Assembly: GCA_021298395.1 (NCBI GenBank)
Contig: JAJTFH010000002.1
Location: forward strand, 62,001-126,000
DNA length: 64,000 bases
DNA from: Gemmatimonadota bacterium
Lineage (GTDB): Bacteria; Gemmatimonadota; Gemmatimonadetes; Gemmatimonadales; Gemmatimonadaceae
Direction of reading: 5' to 3'
The translations under genes were made by a program, and so were the position numbers. Each line of letters begins with the position of its first letter. The first letter of the stretch is position 1. Positions 32,701 through 49,533 of the stretch are shown piece after piece. Under the pieces are notes generated by a model. The model saw only the letters and a list, made by a program, of their open reading frames with translations. It did not search any database and was not told where the DNA came from.

Positions 32701-33117
32701 ATGCGCCGCCGCGCCCGCGGGGAGCGGACGCCACTCAATGCGGAGATCAACGTCGTCTCGCTGATCGACGTGATGATGCTCCTCATGATCATCTTCATGA
32801 TCACCGCTCCGATGATGCAGGGCGGGGTCGATGTCTCGTTGCCGCGTGCGGAGGCGCGCCCGCTCGACGCCAAGCGTCCCCTCGTGGTCTCGATCACACG
32901 CGATGGTCGCATCTACCTCGATGAGGTCCGCGTCTCACTGGGTGAGTTCCGCAGCATGTTCCGCGCGTTGGCCGCGCGGTCGGGGCAGGGGGGGGTCTAC
33001 CTGCGGGCGGATCAGCGCGCCGACTACGGGCAGGTGGTGCGGGTGCTGGCGATCATGCGGGCCGCGGGGGTCGGCGATGTCGGCCTCGTGACGGAGCCGG
33101 AGGACGTCGCGAGGTGA
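32701..33117 (+). CDS. tolR: TolR/ExbD-type proton channel protein
   Basis: 138 residues, one membrane helix (INVVSLIDVMMLLMIIFMITAPMM) that carries the critical proton-accepting aspartate D23, then a periplasmic domain of about 90 residues. One base after tolQ. Partner of TolQ; GTG of the next gene overlaps its stop. Confidence 0.92.
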   Translation: MRRRARGERTPLNAEINVVSLIDVMMLLMIIFMITAPMMQGGVDVSLPRAEARPLDAKRPLVVSITRDGRIYLDEVRVSLGEFRSMFRALAARSGQGGVYLRADQRADYGQVVRVLAIMRAAGVGDVGLVTEPEDVAR

Positions 33118-33854
33118 GTGTCGCGCTCCGCGGCTCCTCCGAGCTGCGTGGTCCGCTCCTCCTCTCGGCGGTCGCGCATCTCGTCGTGATGCTCGCGCTC
33201 CTGGTCGTGCGGACCGCGGCGCCGCCGGCGCTCCCGCTGATGTACGAGGTGAACCTGGTCGCGGCTCCCGTCGGTGAGCGGGCCGCTGGGGTGGTGCGCG
33301 ACCCGGTCCCCGAACCGGTGACGCCACCGGCCGCGGCGCCCACGCCGACTCGCGTGGAACGGAACGACCCGGGGAAGACGGCGCCGATCAAGGCGCCGAC
33401 CGTGAAGGCGCCGACGCGCGCCACGCCCTCGCCGGCCGCGCCCGCCAAGGCCGCACCCGCCAAGGCCGCACCCGCCAAGGCCGCACCCGCCGCTCGCGCA
33501 CCCACAGCCGGCGGTGGCGCCGTGGGTGGGACGGGGACCGACGTCGCCACGGTCCGAACCGAGGGGATCCAGTTCCCCTTCCCTGGGTACCTGCAGAACA
33601 TCGTGCGGCAGATCGCGCTCAACTTCCGGCCGCGGAATCCGGGGGCGCTGACCGCCGAGGTGCTCTTCTTCATCCACCGGGACGGGAGCGTGTCGGGATT
33701 CCGATTCGTCCAGCGCAGCGGGAACTTCGCCTTCGATGTCGAGGCGGAGGGAGCGGTCGAGGCGGCGACGGGAGCGTTTGGTCCGCTGCCGAAGGGGTTC
33801 GGGGATGACATCCTCCCCGTGACCTTCCGATTCGACCCGGCGCGGTTGCGATGA
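33114..33854 (+). CDS. tolA: TolA/TonB-like periplasm-spanning protein
   Basis: 246 residues: short cytoplasmic start, one membrane anchor (LLSAVAHLVVMLALLVV), a proline/alanine/lysine-rich spacer of about 100 residues including three identical PAKAA units, and a C-terminal TonB-like domain (YLQNIVRQIALNFRPRNPGA, then EVLFFIHRDGSV). The gene order tolQ-tolR-tolA-tolB-pal decides for TolA, although the C-terminal domain looks closer to TonB. GTG start at 33114 overlaps the tolR stop. Confidence 0.85.
   Translation: MSVALRGSSELRGPLLLSAVAHLVVMLALLVVRTAAPPALPLMYEVNLVAAPVGERAAGVVRDPVPEPVTPPAAAPTPTRVERNDPGKTAPIKAPTVKAPTRATPSPAAPAKAAPAKAAPAKAAPAARAPTAGGGAVGGTGTDVATVRTEGIQFPFPGYLQNIVRQIALNFRPRNPGALTAEVLFFIHRDGSVSGFRFVQRSGNFAFDVEAEGAVEAATGAFGPLPKGFGDDILPVTFRFDPARLR
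33441..33485 (+). repeat. Three perfect 15-base tandem repeats in tolA
   Basis: CCCGCCAAGGCCGCA repeats exactly three times, coding PAKAA each time, followed by a decayed fourth unit. The perfect base identity points to recent slippage expansion of the spacer. Confidence 0.9.
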
Positions 33855-35146
33855 GGGGAATGGTCCGACGGTTCGATGCCATCCTGATGATGGGGCTTGG
33901 GATGGCGATCGGTTCGGCGCTCGCCGCGCAGGAGCCCGGGGTACGGATCGGCCTCACCTACACACCGGGGTCGCAGCCGGGGATCTATCTCGTGCCGGTC
34001 CGCGGGGCTGATGGGGATTCGGTGCGTCGGATCATCGCCCGCGACCTGGAGTTCGGGCATCGGCTCACGGTGATCGCGCCGGATTCCGGGGCCGTGGTCC
34101 CCACCGGTCGGTTCAACTACCCGCTCTACGCGCGACTCGGTGCGGCGGGGGTGGTGCAGCTGGTGCTCCAGGCGGATGGGAGCGCACTGGTCACCCTGCA
34201 CGATGTGGTGGCCGCGCAGGCGCAGGAGACGCGGCGCTTCGCCCTGCCGGGGCCACGCCTCTCGCCGGCCTGGCGACTCGCCGTGCATGGCATCGCCGAT
34301 GTCATCGAGGAGTGGGTCACGGGGACGCGTGGGGTCGCCGCCACGCGGGTGCTCTTCGTGCGGGGCGGGGCGCTCTGGCGGATCGATAGCGATGGGGCGA
34401 ACGAACAACCGGTGCCGGGTGTGGGTGCGGCCCTCGGACCGGCCTGGCACCCCGATGGGCGGTCGATCGCCTTCGCCCGTATGCGTGATGACGGCACCTC
34501 GGTGGTGGTGCACGAGCTCGCGAGTGGGGAGGAGCGACGCGTGCGCACCGGGGCGCCGCTGAGTCTCTCGCCGGCGTTCTCCCCCGATGGGAAGTGGCTC
34601 GCCTTCGCAGCGGGGGAGTCCGGGACCGATCTCTACGTCGTCCCGGTCGGCGCCTGGGACGAGCCGCCGTTGCGCGTCACCGTCGGACGGGGGTCGACCA
34701 ACGCCCAACCGACCTTCGCCCCCGACGGTCGGCGCATCGCCTTCACGACCTCGCGCCTCGGACGGAACGAGATCTATCTGACCGATGCCGATGGGGCGAA
34801 CCCCGAGCTACTCACCTCGACCGCGTTGACCGATGCCCCCTATCGTGCCGACCCCGCCTGGTCCCCCGATGGGCGGTTCGTCGCCTTCTCGACGCAGATC
34901 GACGGGCGGTTCCAGATCGCCACGATCAGCCTGCGCGACCGCGCGGTGCGCCAGTACACGACCGAGGGGATCAACGAGGACCCCTCCTGGGCCCCCGATG
35001 GACGGCACCTCGTCTTCACCTCCTCGCGGACCGGAACGCGGCAGTTGTGGGTATTGGATACGGAGTCGGGTCGGGTGCGACAGCTCACGCGCGGGGCAGC
35101 TGCGCGTATGGGGGCGTGGTCCCCGCGGCTGCTGAGCGTCCCCTGA
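33851..35146 (+). CDS. tolB: Tol-Pal system beta-propeller protein TolB
   Basis: 431 residues: signal peptide ending SALAAQ, an N-terminal domain of about 140 residues, then a six-bladed propeller built of PD40-type repeats with recurring PAWHPDGRSIAFAR, SPDGKWLAF, APDGRRIAF, SPDGRFVAF and APDGRHLVF. It binds Pal and TolA in the periplasm. ATGA overlap with tolA. Confidence 0.94.
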   Translation: MRGMVRRFDAILMMGLGMAIGSALAAQEPGVRIGLTYTPGSQPGIYLVPVRGADGDSVRRIIARDLEFGHRLTVIAPDSGAVVPTGRFNYPLYARLGAAGVVQLVLQADGSALVTLHDVVAAQAQETRRFALPGPRLSPAWRLAVHGIADVIEEWVTGTRGVAATRVLFVRGGALWRIDSDGANEQPVPGVGAALGPAWHPDGRSIAFARMRDDGTSVVVHELASGEERRVRTGAPLSLSPAFSPDGKWLAFAAGESGTDLYVVPVGAWDEPPLRVTVGRGSTNAQPTFAPDGRRIAFTTSRLGRNEIYLTDADGANPELLTSTALTDAPYRADPAWSPDGRFVAFSTQIDGRFQIATISLRDRAVRQYTTEGINEDPSWAPDGRHLVFTSSRTGTRQLWVLDTESGRVRQLTRGAAARMGAWSPRLLSVP

Positions 35147-35163
35147 GCGTCTCCTGACTCGGT

Positions 35164-35171
35164 TATCTTTC
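35164..35171 (+). promoter_or_regulatory. Candidate FCB-type -7 box before pal
   Basis: TATCTTTC, one base off TAnnTTTG, in the 65-base gap between tolB and pal. It would give a leader of about 35 bases. A GGAG at 35200-35203 serves as ribosome site. Confidence 0.4.
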
Positions 35172-35211
35172 CCCGCATCGTGGATTCTTCACATCACCGG
35201 AGCGCCCCCAC

Positions 35212-35841
35212 ATGAAGAGCTCGCGCACGTTCCCCCTTGTCCTCGCGGTCGCCGGTGTCCTCACGGCCTGCTCTCGCGTGACCCCGAAGACGGAACCGGC
35301 CCCGGCGACCCCGGCGCCAGCCGTGGCTTCGGCAGCGGCCCCCGCGCCGGCTCCGGTGCCCTCGTCGGCCCCGGTCGCCGGGGCGCCGTCCGCTGGCACC
35401 GCCTCCACCAGCGTGGGCGATCGATTGGCTGGCGCGACGGGCACGGTCGCCGGGCGCGATCTCGCCACCAGCGATCCGCGCGCCGTCCTCACCGAGATGA
35501 TCTTCTTCGACTACGACCAGTCGGAGCTGCGGGCGGAGGCGCGGGCCACCCTCGACGCCAAGCTCGCCTTCCTGCAGGCCAATCCGTCGATCCGGATCCG
35601 CGTCGCGGGGCACACCGATGAGCGGGGGTCGGACGAGTACAACATCGCGCTGGGCATGCGTCGCGCTGCCGCGGCCAAGCGCTATCTCGTCGATCTCGGG
35701 ATCGCGGAGAGCCGCATCGCCGTCGTCACGTTCGGGGAGGAGCGGCCGATCAACACCGAGTCCACCGAGGCCGCCTGGGCGCAGAATCGCCGTGACGAGT
35801 TCGAGATCGTCGCGGGCGGGACTGGTAACGGTCCCGCGTGA
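35212..35841 (+). CDS. pal: Peptidoglycan-associated lipoprotein
   Basis: 209 residues: lipoprotein signal ending LTAC (lipidated C20), an alanine/proline-rich linker of about 70 residues, and an OmpA-like domain (FFDYDQSELRAEAR, then RVAGHTDERGSDEYNIALGMRRA) that grips peptidoglycan. The linker is longer than in E. coli Pal. Partner of TolB; stop overlaps the cpoB GTG. Confidence 0.95.
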   Translation: MKSSRTFPLVLAVAGVLTACSRVTPKTEPAPATPAPAVASAAAPAPAPVPSSAPVAGAPSAGTASTSVGDRLAGATGTVAGRDLATSDPRAVLTEMIFFDYDQSELRAEARATLDAKLAFLQANPSIRIRVAGHTDERGSDEYNIALGMRRAAAAKRYLVDLGIAESRIAVVTFGEERPINTESTEAAWAQNRRDEFEIVAGGTGNGPA

Positions 35842-36680
35842 GCCTTCGCTCGCTGCGTCAGCTGGTCTGGGCGCCGGCCGTCCTCGTGACGGCCGGCGCC
35901 TGCCTAGCCACCCAGCAGGATCTTCGGGTCGTCCAGGGAGACGTGGTCGCGGTGCGGGACGAGTTCCGACGCCTCCAGTCGGCGGAGCGGACCCGTGACT
36001 CGCTCCGCGCCGTGTCCCTCGATAGCTCGCTCGCCCAGATCGCCCTGCTGCTGCGCGCGACGAACGACACCGTCCGCGGCATCAGCACGACGGTGGTGCG
36101 CCTGCGCGGCGACGTGCGCGAGGACCTCCAGAACGTGCGCGCGCAGCTGATCGCCATCCAGGAGCTCACGGGGCAGTCGCAGCGTCGCATCCAGGAGCTC
36201 CGCGCCGACCTCGAGTCCGATGCCCTCGAGAAGTCGACGGCGCCGATCGCTGGCGCGGCCACCGGTCGGGATACGGCGCGCACGTCGGCGCCGGCGACTC
36301 CCGGACCGGCCCAGCTCTACCAGATGGGGCAGGATCAATTGCGCCGCGGCAGTGGGGCCTCGGCGCGCAGCGCCTTCGGGGCGCTCCTCGCCCAGTATCC
36401 GCGGTCCGACCTCGCCGCCGACGCGTTGTACGGGATGGCTGAGGCGTACACGGCGGAGGGGAATGCCACCGCCGCTGATTCGATCTACAATCAGGTCGCG
36501 GTCCGGTTCCCGACCTCCGAGCGCGCGCCGACGGCGCTCTACAAGCGCGCGACGGCCCTGCGGCTGGCCGGGAAGGCCGAGCCGGCGCGGACCCTCTACC
36601 GACAGATCATCCAGCGGTACCCGCAGTCCGAGGCGGCCGTGCTCGCCGAACAGTTCGTCGGCACCCCGCGACGCCCCTGA
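35838..36680 (+). CDS. cpoB: Tol-Pal cell-division coordinator CpoB/YbgF
   Basis: 280 residues: hydrophobic leader (WAPAVLVTAGAC, possibly a weak lipobox), a coiled-coil stretch around residues 35-125 and a C-terminal TPR domain with three repeats (LYQMGQDQLRRGSGASARSAF; ALYGMAEAYTAEGNATAADS; ALYKRATALRLAGKAEPART). In Proteobacteria CpoB links Tol to peptidoglycan synthesis. GTG start at 35838 overlaps the pal stop. Confidence 0.9.
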   Translation: MSLRSLRQLVWAPAVLVTAGACLATQQDLRVVQGDVVAVRDEFRRLQSAERTRDSLRAVSLDSSLAQIALLLRATNDTVRGISTTVVRLRGDVREDLQNVRAQLIAIQELTGQSQRRIQELRADLESDALEKSTAPIAGAATGRDTARTSAPATPGPAQLYQMGQDQLRRGSGASARSAFGALLAQYPRSDLAADALYGMAEAYTAEGNATAADSIYNQVAVRFPTSERAPTALYKRATALRLAGKAEPARTLYRQIIQRYPQSEAAVLAEQFVGTPRRP

Positions 36681-36717: not shown

Positions 36718-39700
36718 ATGACGTCCGGTCCCCGCGCGGAGATGCCCTTCCTCGACCATCTCGAGGAGTTGCGCTATCGCCTCATGTGGAGCGTCGGCGC
36801 CCTCCTGCTCTGCATGGTGGGCGCCCTGGTGGTCGTCATGCGGCCGGAGTTCGATGTCATCGGACTGCTGGCGGCCCCGGTGATGCCGTACCTCCCCGAG
36901 GGGAAGCTCGTCGTCACCCATCCCCTCGATCCCTTCTCGATCAGCCTCAAGGTCGCCTTCGCCGTGGGGCTCGTCTGTTCGCTCCCCGTCGTCGGCTATC
37001 ATCTCTGGTCCTTCCTGTCGCCGGCACTCCATCCGCATGAGAAGCGGCTGATGGTGCCCGTGCTCCTCGGCGCGACGATCCTCTTCGGCTCCGGGGTCTA
37101 CATCGCCTGGCGATTCGTGCTGCCGATCATCTTCGACGTGCTGGTGGGGATGCAGTCGGCCTCGCTCCAGCCCCTCTTCACGGCGCGCGAGGTCTTCGGC
37201 TTCATGGTCACGACCTGCCTGGCGTTCGGCGCGATCTCGCAGTTGCCGGTCGTCGTCCTCGCGCTGACCGCGCTCGGGCTCGTGACGCCGACGGCGATGA
37301 TGAAGTTCCGCCGATATGCGATGGCGGCCAGCTTCCTGATCTCCGCGATCGTGACGCCGGGTGACCTGCTCATCATGACCGTGCTGATGGCGGTCCCGCT
37401 CTATGGGCTGTACGAGATCAGCATCATCGTCTCCTGGCTCGTCCATCGGCGGCGGATGCGGCGCATCGGAGCCGCCGCCCTGCTGCTGGTGTCGGTGCTC
37501 GGTGGAGGAGTCGCGTCGACGCTCGGCGCGCAGCCGGCGCGTCCGCGTCCGGCGCAACCGATGCCGACGCGCGCTCCCGGATCGATGCCGAGTGGTCAGG
37601 GACGGTTCGGCCCTCCGGTCGCCGACACCGTCTCGCGCGCCCCGAGCTCGTCGCTCGTCGACTGGGCGCCGGACGACAGCGTCATCCGCGCCCTGATGGC
37701 GCGGCGCGGCTACACCGCGGTCCGCTACCAGGCGGGGCAGGTCCGCTTCGAGGCCGCGGGACGCGTGATGACGCTCCAGCGCGACTCCACCGCGCGGGCC
37801 GCGGTGCAGCGGGACTCCACCCTCCTCGTCGCGGACCGGATCGCGTACAGCGACAGCATCAAGCGCGTCACCGCGCGCGGTGACACGATCGTGATGCGCG
37901 ATCCCTCCCGCGGCGACGATATCCTCGGACACGAGGAGTTGGTCTACGACGTCGAGCGTCGCGAAGGCCGGACCCGGGACTTCAGCACCATCGCCAAGGC
38001 CGGGGAGGACTGGAAGGTGATGGCGCATCAGGCCGCCTTCGCCTCCGATACCGCCGCCGACCGCAACACCGTCTACGGACGGGATGGCGTCATCACCTCG
38101 TGCCTCGACAGCGTCCCGCACTATCACTTCCTCGCCAAGGAGCTGAAGCGCGTCAGTGGGAGCACGCTGGTGGCCCGGCCCGCCATCCTGTACGTGCAGG
38201 ATGTCCCCGTGCTGTGGCTCCCCTTCATCTTCCAGGACATCCGCTCCGGGCGTCGCTCGGGGATCATCCCGCCGCGCATGGGGTTCGCCGAGTTGGTGCG
38301 GAATAGCCCGACCTATCGCCGCACGGTCGAGAACCTCGGGTACTACTTCGCGATCAACGACTACATCGACGCGCAGGTCTCGATGGACTGGCGGTCGAGC
38401 GCTCGCGCGACGGCGCAGGACCCCGGCTGGACGCGGTTGAATGGGGAGATCCGCTACCGGTGGCTCGATCGGTTCACGTCGGGGACGCTGGCGCTCTCGC
38501 AGAACACGCTGAGCACCGGGAGCCGGAACACCGCGATCAGTTGGTCGCATGCGCAGGAGTTCTCCTCACGGACGCGCCTCAACACCAACCTCAATTACGT
38601 CACCAGCACGCAGATCCAGCGGCAGACGATCATCAATCCCTTGGCCGCGGTGGCGACGATCGCCTCGCAGATGAATCTGGTGCGCCAGCAGGGCCCGTTC
38701 TCGGTGAATCTCGGCGGCACCCGGCGGCAGTATCCCGGGCGCGATCAGGTCGACCAGGACTTCCCTTCGCTCAACATCGCCTCCAAGCCCCTCGAGCTCG
38801 GGACGTGGTTCGTCCTCAATCCGAGTCTGCAGTTCGGGCAGCGGAACAGCTACAACCTCGACGCCACCGGCGACTTCGCCTATCGCTACCTGCAGGCCGC
38901 GAGTGGGCTCGATTCCGTGCGCCTGAAGCGCAATACGGGGACCACGACCCTCGCGATCGGGACCCCGTTCAAGATCTTCGACTTCCAGGTCCAGAGCGGG
39001 ATCCGCTTCAATCAACAGCTCTTCGATTATCCGCAGATCATCACGCTGCGCGACGTGCAGGACAGTGCGGTGCGTGTCGATCGGGTCTACCAGCGCACGT
39101 ACGAGTCGAGCCTCGATGCCGACATCTCGATCGGCCTCCCGCAGTTCCTGCAGGGGACCTGGAACCTGACGCCATCGGTGACGGCGTCGAACGTCGACCC
39201 AGGTGGCTTCGCCGTGCGCACCTTCCGGTCCAACGGCGCCTGGGTCACGCAGCGCAAGCGTCTGTCGTATGGGCTCGGGGTCTCGCCGACGATCTATGCG
39301 CTCCTCCCGGGGTTCGGGCCGGTCCAGCGGTTCCGTCACGCGATCTCGCCCACGGTCAGTTATTCGTTCTCGCCCGAGGCCTCGGTCCCCGATGCCTTCC
39401 TCGCCGCGACCGGGCGCACGCGGGCCGGCTACCTCGGGTCCCTCGCGCAGAACCGTGTCTCGCTCGGTCTCACGACGAACATCGAGGCGAAGTTGCGTGT
39501 GCCGGAGGATTCCACCGATCTCTCCGCGGATGGCGGGAAGAAGGTGAAGGTGGCGACGATCCAGTTCACGGGGATCGCGTATGACTTCGAGCGGCGACGC
39601 GCGACGGGGAAGACGGGATTCGCGACCGATCGGTTCGGGTACACCTTCCGCTCCGATCTCCTCCCGGGGTTCGACCTCGGCGTCGATTACTCGCTCTTCC

Positions 39701-40461
39701 AGGGCGATCTCCTGAGCGATACCGCGAGCTTCAGTCCGTACCGGGAGGCGGTGCGCGCCTCGTTCAACCTCGACGCCAACTCCAGCCTCGTCCAAGCGAT
39801 CGCGCGGCTCTTCGGGGTGTCCCTTGGGGCGGCACGGCGTGGCCCCGCGCCGATGATGGAGCAGAGCCCGATGGGTGGCGGACTCATCTCCGCGGCGGGC
39901 TCGCTCAATGGGATGGGGGCGACCACCGGGACCCGCGCGCGCGGCGGGATCCAGGAGATCCCGACGGGGCAGGGGTTCACCGCAGCCTTCACCGTGAGTT
40001 CGCAACGCCAGCGCCCCCCCGTCGGGGGGCGCATCGTGGACTTCGATCCCACGCTGCAATGTCAGGCGCTGCTCGGATTCCCGCAGTACGACACCTGCGT
40101 CTTCCAAGCCGAACGATCCGCGGCGACGCAGGTCGCGCAGACGGCGGGTCCCTCTGGTGCGACCTTCTTCCGCGTCCCGCCGACGACCTCGGTGGGGATC
40201 CGCACGACCTTCAACCTCACCCCACGCTGGGCGGGGTCGTGGAGCACCACCTACGATGTCGTGCGGAGCGAGTTCGCCAGCCAGGTGGTCTCCCTCCAGC
40301 GCGAGCTGCATGATTGGCGGGCCGTCTTCGGCTTCACGCAGGCGCCGAATGGGAACTTCGCCTTCACCTTCTTCATCTCCCTCAAGGCGCAACCGGAGAT
40401 CAAGCTCGACTACGATCGCCAGACGTTCCGCCCCCCGGGAGCAGGACTCCGTACCCCATGA
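36718..40461 (+). CDS. tatC: TatC fused in frame to an LptD-like outer membrane protein
   Basis: One uninterrupted frame of 1247 residues. Residues 1-245 are a complete TatC, the twin-arginine receptor: MPFLDHLEELRYRLMWS, six membrane helices, ending YEISIIVSWLVHRRR. No stop follows. Residues 247-270 (RRIGAAALLLVSVLGGGVAS, then TLGAQP) look like a signal peptide, and residues about 275-1247 are an LptD/OstA-type protein: an OstA-like beta domain (LVADRIAYSDSIKRV) then an LptD barrel (LYVQDVPVLWLPFIFQDI, then RRSGIIPPRMG). TatC ends in the cytoplasm, so the internal signal would correctly export LptD, which could be cut free at LGA. Alternatives are internal initiation at 37456 or a lost stop from an assembly error. 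The ATG at 36718 gives the usual TatC start; its end overlaps hutH. Confidence 0.85.
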   Translation: MTSGPRAEMPFLDHLEELRYRLMWSVGALLLCMVGALVVVMRPEFDVIGLLAAPVMPYLPEGKLVVTHPLDPFSISLKVAFAVGLVCSLPVVGYHLWSFLSPALHPHEKRLMVPVLLGATILFGSGVYIAWRFVLPIIFDVLVGMQSASLQPLFTAREVFGFMVTTCLAFGAISQLPVVVLALTALGLVTPTAMMKFRRYAMAASFLISAIVTPGDLLIMTVLMAVPLYGLYEISIIVSWLVHRRRMRRIGAAALLLVSVLGGGVASTLGAQPARPRPAQPMPTRAPGSMPSGQGRFGPPVADTVSRAPSSSLVDWAPDDSVIRALMARRGYTAVRYQAGQVRFEAAGRVMTLQRDSTARAAVQRDSTLLVADRIAYSDSIKRVTARGDTIVMRDPSRGDDILGHEELVYDVERREGRTRDFSTIAKAGEDWKVMAHQAAFASDTAADRNTVYGRDGVITSCLDSVPHYHFLAKELKRVSGSTLVARPAILYVQDVPVLWLPFIFQDIRSGRRSGIIPPRMGFAELVRNSPTYRRTVENLGYYFAINDYIDAQVSMDWRSSARATAQDPGWTRLNGEIRYRWLDRFTSGTLALSQNTLSTGSRNTAISWSHAQEFSSRTRLNTNLNYVTSTQIQRQTIINPLAAVATIASQMNLVRQQGPFSVNLGGTRRQYPGRDQVDQDFPSLNIASKPLELGTWFVLNPSLQFGQRNSYNLDATGDFAYRYLQAASGLDSVRLKRNTGTTTLAIGTPFKIFDFQVQSGIRFNQQLFDYPQIITLRDVQDSAVRVDRVYQRTYESSLDADISIGLPQFLQGTWNLTPSVTASNVDPGGFAVRTFRSNGAWVTQRKRLSYGLGVSPTIYALLPGFGPVQRFRHAISPTVSYSFSPEASVPDAFLAATGRTRAGYLGSLAQNRVSLGLTTNIEAKLRVPEDSTDLSADGGKKVKVATIQFTGIAYDFERRRATGKTGFATDRFGYTFRSDLLPGFDLGVDYSLFQGDLLSDTASFSPYREAVRASFNLDANSSLVQAIARLFGVSLGAARRGPAPMMEQSPMGGGLISAAGSLNGMGATTGTRARGGIQEIPTGQGFTAAFTVSSQRQRPPVGGRIVDFDPTLQCQALLGFPQYDTCVFQAERSAATQVAQTAGPSGATFFRVPPTTSVGIRTTFNLTPRWAGSWSTTYDVVRSEFASQVVSLQRELHDWRAVFGFTQAPNGNFAFTFFISLKAQPEIKLDYDRQTFRPPGAGLRTP
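37456..40461 (+). other. lptD: lptD portion with possible own start codon
   Basis: In-frame ATG at 37456 would start a 1001-residue protein MRRIGAAALLLVSVLGGG..., a textbook signal peptide with a basic start, followed by the LptD-like domain that assembles lipopolysaccharide in the outer membrane. No Shine-Dalgarno precedes it. It is listed separately because the ancestral lptD gene probably began here; translation from it cannot be shown from sequence. Confidence 0.55.
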
Positions 40462-41984: not shown

Positions 41985-43551
41985 ATGTCACAGCCACGCC
42001 CCGTCCGTGCGCCGCGCGGCGCCACGATCTCCTGCAAGGGGTGGGAGCAGGAAGCCGCCCTCCGCATGCTCATGAACAACCTCGACCCCGAGGTCGCCGA
42101 GCGCCCCGATGATCTCGTGGTGTACGGCGGGACCGGGCGCGCGGCGCGGAATTGGCAGGCCTTCGACGACATCGTGCGCAGCCTCCGCGCGCTCGAGCAC
42201 GACGAGACGCTGCTGGTACAGAGCGGGAAGCCGGTCGCGGTCTTCCGCACGCACGCGAACGCGCCGCGCGTCCTGATCGCGAACTCCAACCTCGTCGGGC
42301 GCTTCGCCACCTGGGACTACTTCCGCGAGATGGAGCGGAAGGGGCTCATGATGTACGGGCAGATGACCGCCGGGTCGTGGATCTACATCGGCTCGCAGGG
42401 GATCGTGCAGGGGACGTACGAGACCTTCGGGGCGGTCGCACGCCAACACTTCGGGGGCTCGCTCGCGGGGCGGTTCGTCCTCACCGCCGGCTTGGGCGGG
42501 ATGGGGGGCGCGCAGCCCCTGGCGGCGACCATGCACGACGCGGCCTTCCTCGGCATCGATGTCGATCCCGCGCGGAGCCAGAAACGCGTCGATACCGGCT
42601 ACTGCGATCGCATCACGCATGCCCGCGCTCATCGCGCGTGGCGATATCCCCGATGTCGTCACCGATCAGACCTCGGCGCACGACATGCTGAATGGGTACG
42701 TCCCGCACGGGATGACGCTCGCCGAGGCGAATGCGCTCCGCGCCGCCGATCCCGCGACCTACGTCCGGCGCGCGACCGAGAGCGCGGTGGTCCATGTGGA
42801 GGCGATGCTCGCGATGCAGCGCCGCGGCGCCATCGCCTTCGACTACGGCAACAACATCCGCACCGTCGCACTCGACGCCGGCGTTGCGACCGCCTTCGAG
42901 ATCCCCGGCTTCGTCCCGGAGTACATCCGCCCCCTCTTCGCCGAGGGGAAGGGGCCGTTCCGGTGGGTGGCGCTCTCGGGCGACCCCAAGGACATCGCCC
43001 GCACCGACGAGCTCGTGCTCGAGATGTTCCCAGAGGACGAGCACCTCAAGCGGTGGATCACCCTCGCGCGCGAGCGGATCCATTTCCAGGGGCTCCCCGC
43101 GCGCATCTGCTGGTTGGGGCAGGGCGCGCGTGCGACGTTCGGGATGGCGCTCAATGATCTCGTCGCGCGCGGCGAGGTCTCGGCGCCGATCGCCATCGGA
43201 CGCGATCACCTCGATACGGGGAGCGTCGCCTCCCCCTTCCGAGAGACCGAGGCGATGCGCGACGGGAGTGATGCCGTCGCCGACTGGGCGATCCTCAATG
43301 CGTTGCTCAATGTGGCGAGCGGGGCGAGCTGGGTGAGCTTCCATCACGGCGGTGGCGTCGGGATCGGGAACTCGCTCCATGCGGGGCAGGTGATCGTCGC
43401 CGACGGTACGCCGGCGATGCGGGAGCGACTGCAGCGCGTCCTCACGAACGATCCGGGGATCGGCGTCGCACGTCACGCCGATGCGGGCTACGAGATCGCG
43501 CGCGAGACCGCGGTGCGCGAGGGGATCCAGCTGCCGTCGCTCCATTGCTGA
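41985..43551 (+). pseudogene. hutU: Urocanate hydratase, broken by an internal deletion and frameshift
   Basis: Two frames together cover urocanate hydratase, which turns urocanate into imidazolone propionate with NAD. The first frame (41985 to about 42620) has the start [23 protein letters not shown] and [18 protein letters not shown], ending TGYCDRITH. The second (from 42619 to 43551) begins [22 protein letters not shown] and runs to the normal end. About 30 residues (the DLDeAl...GNAAE region between GYxD and LPELxxRG) are missing at the junction, and the frames differ, so deletion length is 2 modulo 3 (about 89-92 bases). Everything else is well conserved, so the lesion is recent or an assembly error. 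A continuous product would end at 43157 with an unrelated tail. Confidence 0.85.
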
Positions 43552-49287: not shown

Positions 49288-49533
49288 ATGTTCGGATTGG
49301 GTCCAGGGGAACTGATTCTCATCTCGTTGGTCATCCTCGTCGTCTTCGGCGCCAAGAAGGTGCCGGAGCTGATGGGAGGCGTCGGGAAGGGGATCCGCGA
49401 GTTCAAGCGGAACATGAACGATGTCCAGCGGGAGATCGCGACGCCGGCGGAGCGCGAGGCGCTCCCGCCGGGGGAGTCCCGTAGCGTCGAGCACGATGAT
49501 GCCGTGGAGAAGGAGCCGAAGCGGCTGATGTGA
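49288..49533 (+). CDS. tatA: Twin-arginine translocase subunit TatA
   Basis: 81 residues: N-terminal membrane helix after MFGLGPGELILISLVILVVFGAKKVPELM, then an amphipathic helix (GVGKGIREFKRNMND) and a charged tail, the standard TatA/E layout with the FG hinge. It forms the pore that works with TatC, which is 12 kb upstream in fused form. Followed by two strong hairpins. Confidence 0.94.
   Translation: MFGLGPGELILISLVILVVFGAKKVPELMGGVGKGIREFKRNMNDVQREIATPAEREALPPGESRSVEHDDAVEKEPKRLM

Follow-up and report, generated by a model that had tools for sequence, protein, structure and literature searches.

The window (the whole stretch of DNA that was analysed, 64,000 nucleotides long) comes from a Gemmatimonadota MAG of 1.82 Mb and contains, on the plus strand like the tol-pal-type run, the hutH overlap, and the tatA-like gene given below, one uninterrupted frame of 1247 aa from an ATG at 36718 to a TGA at 40461. 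The initial annotation had read this frame as a complete TatC passing, without a stop, through a signal-peptide-like segment into LptD; the two profiles, PF00902 for the first part and PF19838 for the last, bear this reading out. Upstream lies a tol-pal-type run (32701..36680) with, according to Pfam, ExbD/TolR, a TonB/TolA-like protein, a TolB-like propeller, Pal (OmpA domain), and a CpoB-like TPR protein. Downstream, the stop of lptD overlaps by 4 nt (ATGA, 40458..40461) the start of a hutH-like gene for a histidine/aromatic ammonia-lyase (PF00221, E 4e-189). A tatA-like gene of 81 aa (49288..49533; PF02416, E 6.7e-16) is the single match to the TatA/B family in the window genome. The urocanase gene (hutU, 41985-43551) is spread over two frames, one with the N-terminal domain and the early Rossmann part and the other with the remainder; it is either a pseudogene or an assembly indel of this MAG.

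The TatC part comprises residues 1-242 (36718..37443) with the six-helix core. The profile PF00902 matches residues 13-227 over its complete length (1-208 of 208; E 9e-53; 179.6 bits vs. a cut-off of 25.1), the NCBIfam model tatC (TIGR00945) gives 162.2 against a cut-off of 132.7, and the AlphaFold model compares with the solved structures 4b4a and 4hts at TM-scores of 0.84-0.85 (target-normalised). The alignment shows E17, R19, P54, F99, and E108 unchanged throughout its fused rows (60/60) and, wherever the residue is present, among the 92 separate rows as well. We take them to be the equivalents of E15, R17, P48, F94, and E103, the signal-recognition residues of E. coli TatC; these residues are intact in all fusions. 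Six-helix core, as judged by profile and model, and recognition residues are those of an ordinary TatC (PF00902/TIGR00945; 4b4a of Aquifex, 9dzz of E. coli), but the fused TatC has no stop codon, runs into an internal signal peptide, and would be left with a predicted seventh helix. Residue 175 (37240-37242), which corresponds to Glu170 of E. coli TatC, is Gln in the window and in its genus, fused or unfused.

After TatC, the linker of the window reads SWLVHRRRMRRIGAAALLLVSVLGGGVASTLGA, followed by QPARPRP past the predicted cut. It consists of a basic n-region, HRRRMRR (residues 243-249, 37444..37464), a hydrophobic h-region, IGAAALLLVSVL (residues 250-261, 37465..37500; mean Kyte-Doolittle hydropathy of 2.69), and a c-region with the predicted signal peptidase I site GGGVASTLGA/Q (37501..37533), where the site pattern and the invariance of Q272 place the cut between A271 and Q272. 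The stretch HRRRMRR is predicted to be simultaneously the cytoplasmic tail of TatC and the n-region of the internal signal peptide; within it, at 37456 as the initial annotation had it, is the sole in-frame ATG 5′ of the hydrophobic segment. The h-region is a further hydrophobic segment after the six-helix core and, by hydropathy, a predicted seventh helix, for which there are no topology data. In the AlphaFold model, TM6 and the adjoining linker form one continuous helix (218-262), in which confidence drops toward the end; we do not read the topology from this model helix, and the seventh helix is predicted only.

The mature LptD (37531..40458) would start with a Pro-rich N-terminus of about 40 residues, predicted to be disordered, and continue with a jellyroll and a β-barrel. 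PF19838 (LptD_2) matches residues 485-957 (E 3e-33; 115.7 bits vs. a cut-off of 22.5; profile positions 2-430 of 464), and profile comparison relates the LptD part to the solved LptD 7omm (E 1.5e-9) and to 8h1r. With the AlphaFold model of LptD (mean pLDDT of 72.9), Foldseek hits 1-37 are all LptD or LptDE structures (best 8h1s, E 3.9e-24). On the strength of these models, the LptD half has the jellyroll and β-barrel fold; transport of LPS together with LptE is only inferred. Fold and top structural matches are thus those of the LptD of the LPS transport system (PF19838; solved as 8h1s and 7omm), whereas the signal peptide, N-terminal in the usual LptD, is internal to a larger protein here.

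Profile searches of the window genome return one TatC, one LptD_2, and one TatA/B, so that the fused frame is the sole source of both TatC and LptD. All 19 genomes checked (19/19) have one TatC and one LptD_2 gene each, with TatA present in all, and signal peptidase I was found in 11/11 genomes checked.

Distribution of the fused frame

Compared in relatives, the tatC–lptD junction is open in two sister MAGs with different DNA: G013 (contig VHBP01000033, isolate M_DeepCast_50m), with a TatC 88% identical to that of the window, and G004 (contig CAIVJV010000352, isolate LaPlata-b), with a TatC 92% identical but a contig that stops 91 residues past TatC. The fused frame is also present in 78 of the 85 informative genomes of f2, a family of the same order but not the family of the window (102 genomes were searched, 90 of them with a TatC match; G087, G097, G100, G117, and G140 end too early to judge). 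Those frames have typically about 1170-1260 residues; LptD is confirmed by profile in the fetched junctions, and the remaining genomes rest on frame length. Separate genes occur in the other seven (G049, G056, G090, G092, G105, G106, and G109). The fusion is nearly fixed in f2, and it spans dozens of genera.

In the family of the window (f1, 179 genomes), fused frames occur, among the matches listed, only in the window genome (G000), G004, and G013, and in two g5 genomes (G270 and G274). Within the window genus, the fusion is restricted to the three-genome clade, the other relatives having separate genes. No fusion was found in the other orders and classes sampled. In G302 (L192, G302:C111), an apparent second TatC with a long frame was rejected: two tandem tatC genes are followed directly by a separate lptD, with TGA then GTG in the same frame.

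The initial annotation had considered a stop codon lost only in the window, which the relatives with an open junction refute; it had also held that separate genes in all close relatives would speak against its reading, a situation not met since fusion is the rule in f2. The frameshift-split hutU means that local indels in the window MAG cannot be excluded, and a sequencing or assembly error could in principle have deleted the stop codon; with G013 and G004, each an independent MAG, and dozens of independent f2 assemblies all showing an open junction, however, practically nothing is left of this explanation. Chance is excluded by the recurrence of the same architecture in 78/85 informative f2 genomes.

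Linker, cleavage site and proposed processing

The linker was followed in 61 distinct fusions with LptD confirmed by profile. Its basic n-region is followed in these by a hydrophobic segment, with a mean hydropathy of about 2.5, and then, some 24 residues past TatC, by a signal-peptidase-type site. The site is found by pattern in 60/61 fusions, with Ala (55), Gly (4), or Ser (1) at −1, Leu, Ala, or Val at −3 in 56/60, and Gln at +1 in all 60. The search pattern demanded Q at +1 and A, G, or S at −1, so that those counts are partly built in. Independently of the pattern, Q272 is the sole invariant column between Tyr232-Glu233 of TatC and LptD in 39 aligned fusions. The polyprotein with a predicted cut after LGA that had been suggested for the window is supported by both the invariant Q272 and the prevalence of Ala at −1 (55/60), the cleavage itself being inferred. 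Over all pairs, pN/pS is saturated and uninformative and was hence repeated on 13 close pairs, with values of 0.21 for the n-region, 0.59 from the h-region to the cut, 0.11 for TatC, and 0.16 for LptD beyond +40. The linker is under purifying selection, as expected for translated protein.

We favor the reading, to which we give a probability of about 0.85, that tatC and lptD form one gene for one obligate precursor, with an internal signal peptide from which signal peptidase I would release LptD. That ribosomes read on through the junction and that the product is cleaved is inferred; the continuous frame, the single copies, the conservation, and the signal-peptide-like linker are seen in the sequences, and there are no protein-level data. 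The ribosome would make TatC first, which would insert with its C-terminus in the cytoplasm, as is established for TatC; from that side, the basic stretch and the hydrophobic helix would re-enter the membrane. Acting as an internal Sec signal peptide, these segments would lead to the threading of LptD through SecYEG during synthesis. The cut by signal peptidase I would fall between the AxA-like site and the conserved Gln, and the released LptD would proceed to the outer membrane. Unless a second protease removes it, the signal peptide would stay on TatC, giving it a seventh transmembrane helix and a tail in the periplasm; that such a helix is left on TatC after the cut is probable, but inferred.

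The internal start at 37456, given initially as a simple alternative, would make this ATG the main origin of LptD, with TatC–LptD read-through as a tolerated by-product or a long-tailed TatC. The ATG is right at the n-region in the window and in G004, some start codon precedes the h-region in 12/61 fusions, and translational coupling looks like the rule among unfused relatives. On the other hand, the sister G013 has ATC in place of this ATG, and in 49/61 fusions the stretch from TatC to the hydrophobic segment contains neither ATG nor GTG nor TTG (non-standard starts are not excluded). The rate of start codons is 1.7% in that stretch vs. 9.9% in the body of TatC, a difference explained in part by composition, since the stretch before the h-region is rich in Arg and Ala. 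There is no recognisable Shine-Dalgarno sequence 5′ of 37456, a weak argument as tatC itself lacks one. The internal start is for these reasons unlikely as the main source of LptD, although some LptD could arise by internal initiation in the 12 fusions, the window included, that keep a possible start. Even then, TatC being without a stop of its own, each TatC molecule would still bear an extension.

A release of TatC by programmed frameshifting near the junction would need an early stop in another frame, as some fusions have (19/61 in +1 within 40 codons); we find it hardly credible, because 36/61 fusions are stop-free within 40 codons in both alternative frames, the window among them, where both stay free of stops for >80 codons. 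The fusion could also remain uncut, with TatC tethered to LptD through the Pro-rich linker in a bridge from inner to outer membrane. The stretch past the h-region is indeed Pro-rich and predicted to be disordered, and the junction behaves as a single conserved unit. But the conservation of Ala at −1 and Gln at +1 is that of a site for signal peptidase I, the unfused LptD proteins bear the same kind of signal peptide, and the genes have been split repeatedly, all of which makes an uncut bridge very unlikely.

With the cleaved precursor as the preferred reading, the leftover signal peptide might be a functional seventh helix of TatC, one cut freeing LptD and completing the Tat receptor, so that the assembly of LPS in the outer membrane and that of Tat would be coupled. 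As only one TatA/B gene is present in the window genome, the helix might, for example, stand in for a TatA/B-type partner; we regard this extension as speculative and rather improbable. The Arg-rich linker also raised LptD as a candidate Tat substrate, which was rejected: no junction (0/61) fits RRx[FL][LIMVF], and with junctions so unlike Tat signals, export of LptD by the TatC to which it is fused is unlikely. For a functional link between Tat and LPS assembly, gene order is all the support there is, and the neighbors, tol-pal-type genes and hutH, suggest a shared envelope operon as much as a specific partnership.

Precedents and significance

Polyproteins are uncommon among bacteria. Mechanistically, the closest precedent is the precursor of cytochromes b and c1 in Bradyrhizobium japonicum, FbcH, in which a polytopic inner-membrane protein is followed without a break by an exported protein with its signal sequence, the two are parted by signal peptidase, and a single gene stands in place of two neighbors. 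As in FbcH, two proteins occupy one uninterrupted frame without other copies, and an internal signal peptide with a conserved cleavage motif, as expected of a polyprotein of this type, can be recognised in the fusions (cleavage of TatC–LptD is inferred). In contrast, the two halves of FbcH are subunits that work together in one complex of a single membrane, while TatC and LptD belong to different membranes and pathways, and the second partner is here an outer-membrane β-barrel.

In the window bacterium and nearly family-wide in f2, two important envelope proteins thus appear to come from one common precursor. The polyprotein would unite partners of different membranes and pathways, and in the genomes checked it is the sole source of both. 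The usual view is that export of outer-membrane proteins follows their synthesis; the proposed precursor would imply that an outer-membrane β-barrel is exported while attached to the ribosome by which an inner-membrane protein was made immediately before, and that TatC may bear an extra helix. Automatic annotation may well label the whole protein as TatC alone or as LptD alone (we have not checked this). We found no publication on a TatC–LptD fusion in the open-access literature, the only literature searched, and this absence is no proof. A paper on TatC diversity lists one Gemmatimonadetes TatC, and the words fusion and fused are absent from it (PMC3827258).

Origin and later splits

On a FastTree tree of 153 TatC plus LptD rows, with the junction excluded, eight changes of state between fused and separate are required, and the states are clustered far beyond shuffles. 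Counts of changes alone cannot separate gains from losses; the starred branches of the tree force all eight. In the simplest reading of this tree, the fusion would have been gained once in the ancestor of f2, once in the clade of the window, and once or twice in g5, and would have been split four times within f2. The tree requires at least three gains, with several later splits. Within f2, fused genes have come apart more than once, so that the joined state is dispensable, a point against the favored reading.

In other Gemmatimonadota, overlapping tatC–lptD pairs share with the fusion the gene order and the type of signal peptide but, unlike it, yield separate proteins, with stop and start in different frames and, commonly, an overlap of 4 nt between them. 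The start of lptD overlaps the stop of tatC in this way in 51/92 separate pairs, and several further pairs carry TGATG at the boundary. With unfused relatives mostly overlapping by 4 nt, a small indel can create a fusion, and it is likely, judging from these junctions, that the fusion arose several times from ancestors with such a tatC-stop/lptD-start overlap. L126 presents the reverse case, a TGA within an ATGA overlap. The route from overlapping stop and start codons to a fusion, and back, is clear.

Stop/start overlaps of 4 nt recur along the gene run, as in lptD/hutH in the window and tatC/lptD in the 51 unfused relatives. In G090 (L144, G090:C35), the tatC/lptD frame is broken inside a GGC/GGG repeat and no start codon precedes the LptD signal peptide; the break may be an assembly slip (or a slippery repeat) and not a true split. 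In the f2 genome G049, tatC (L127, G049:C47) and lptD (G049:C20) are on different contigs, with lptD near tatA.
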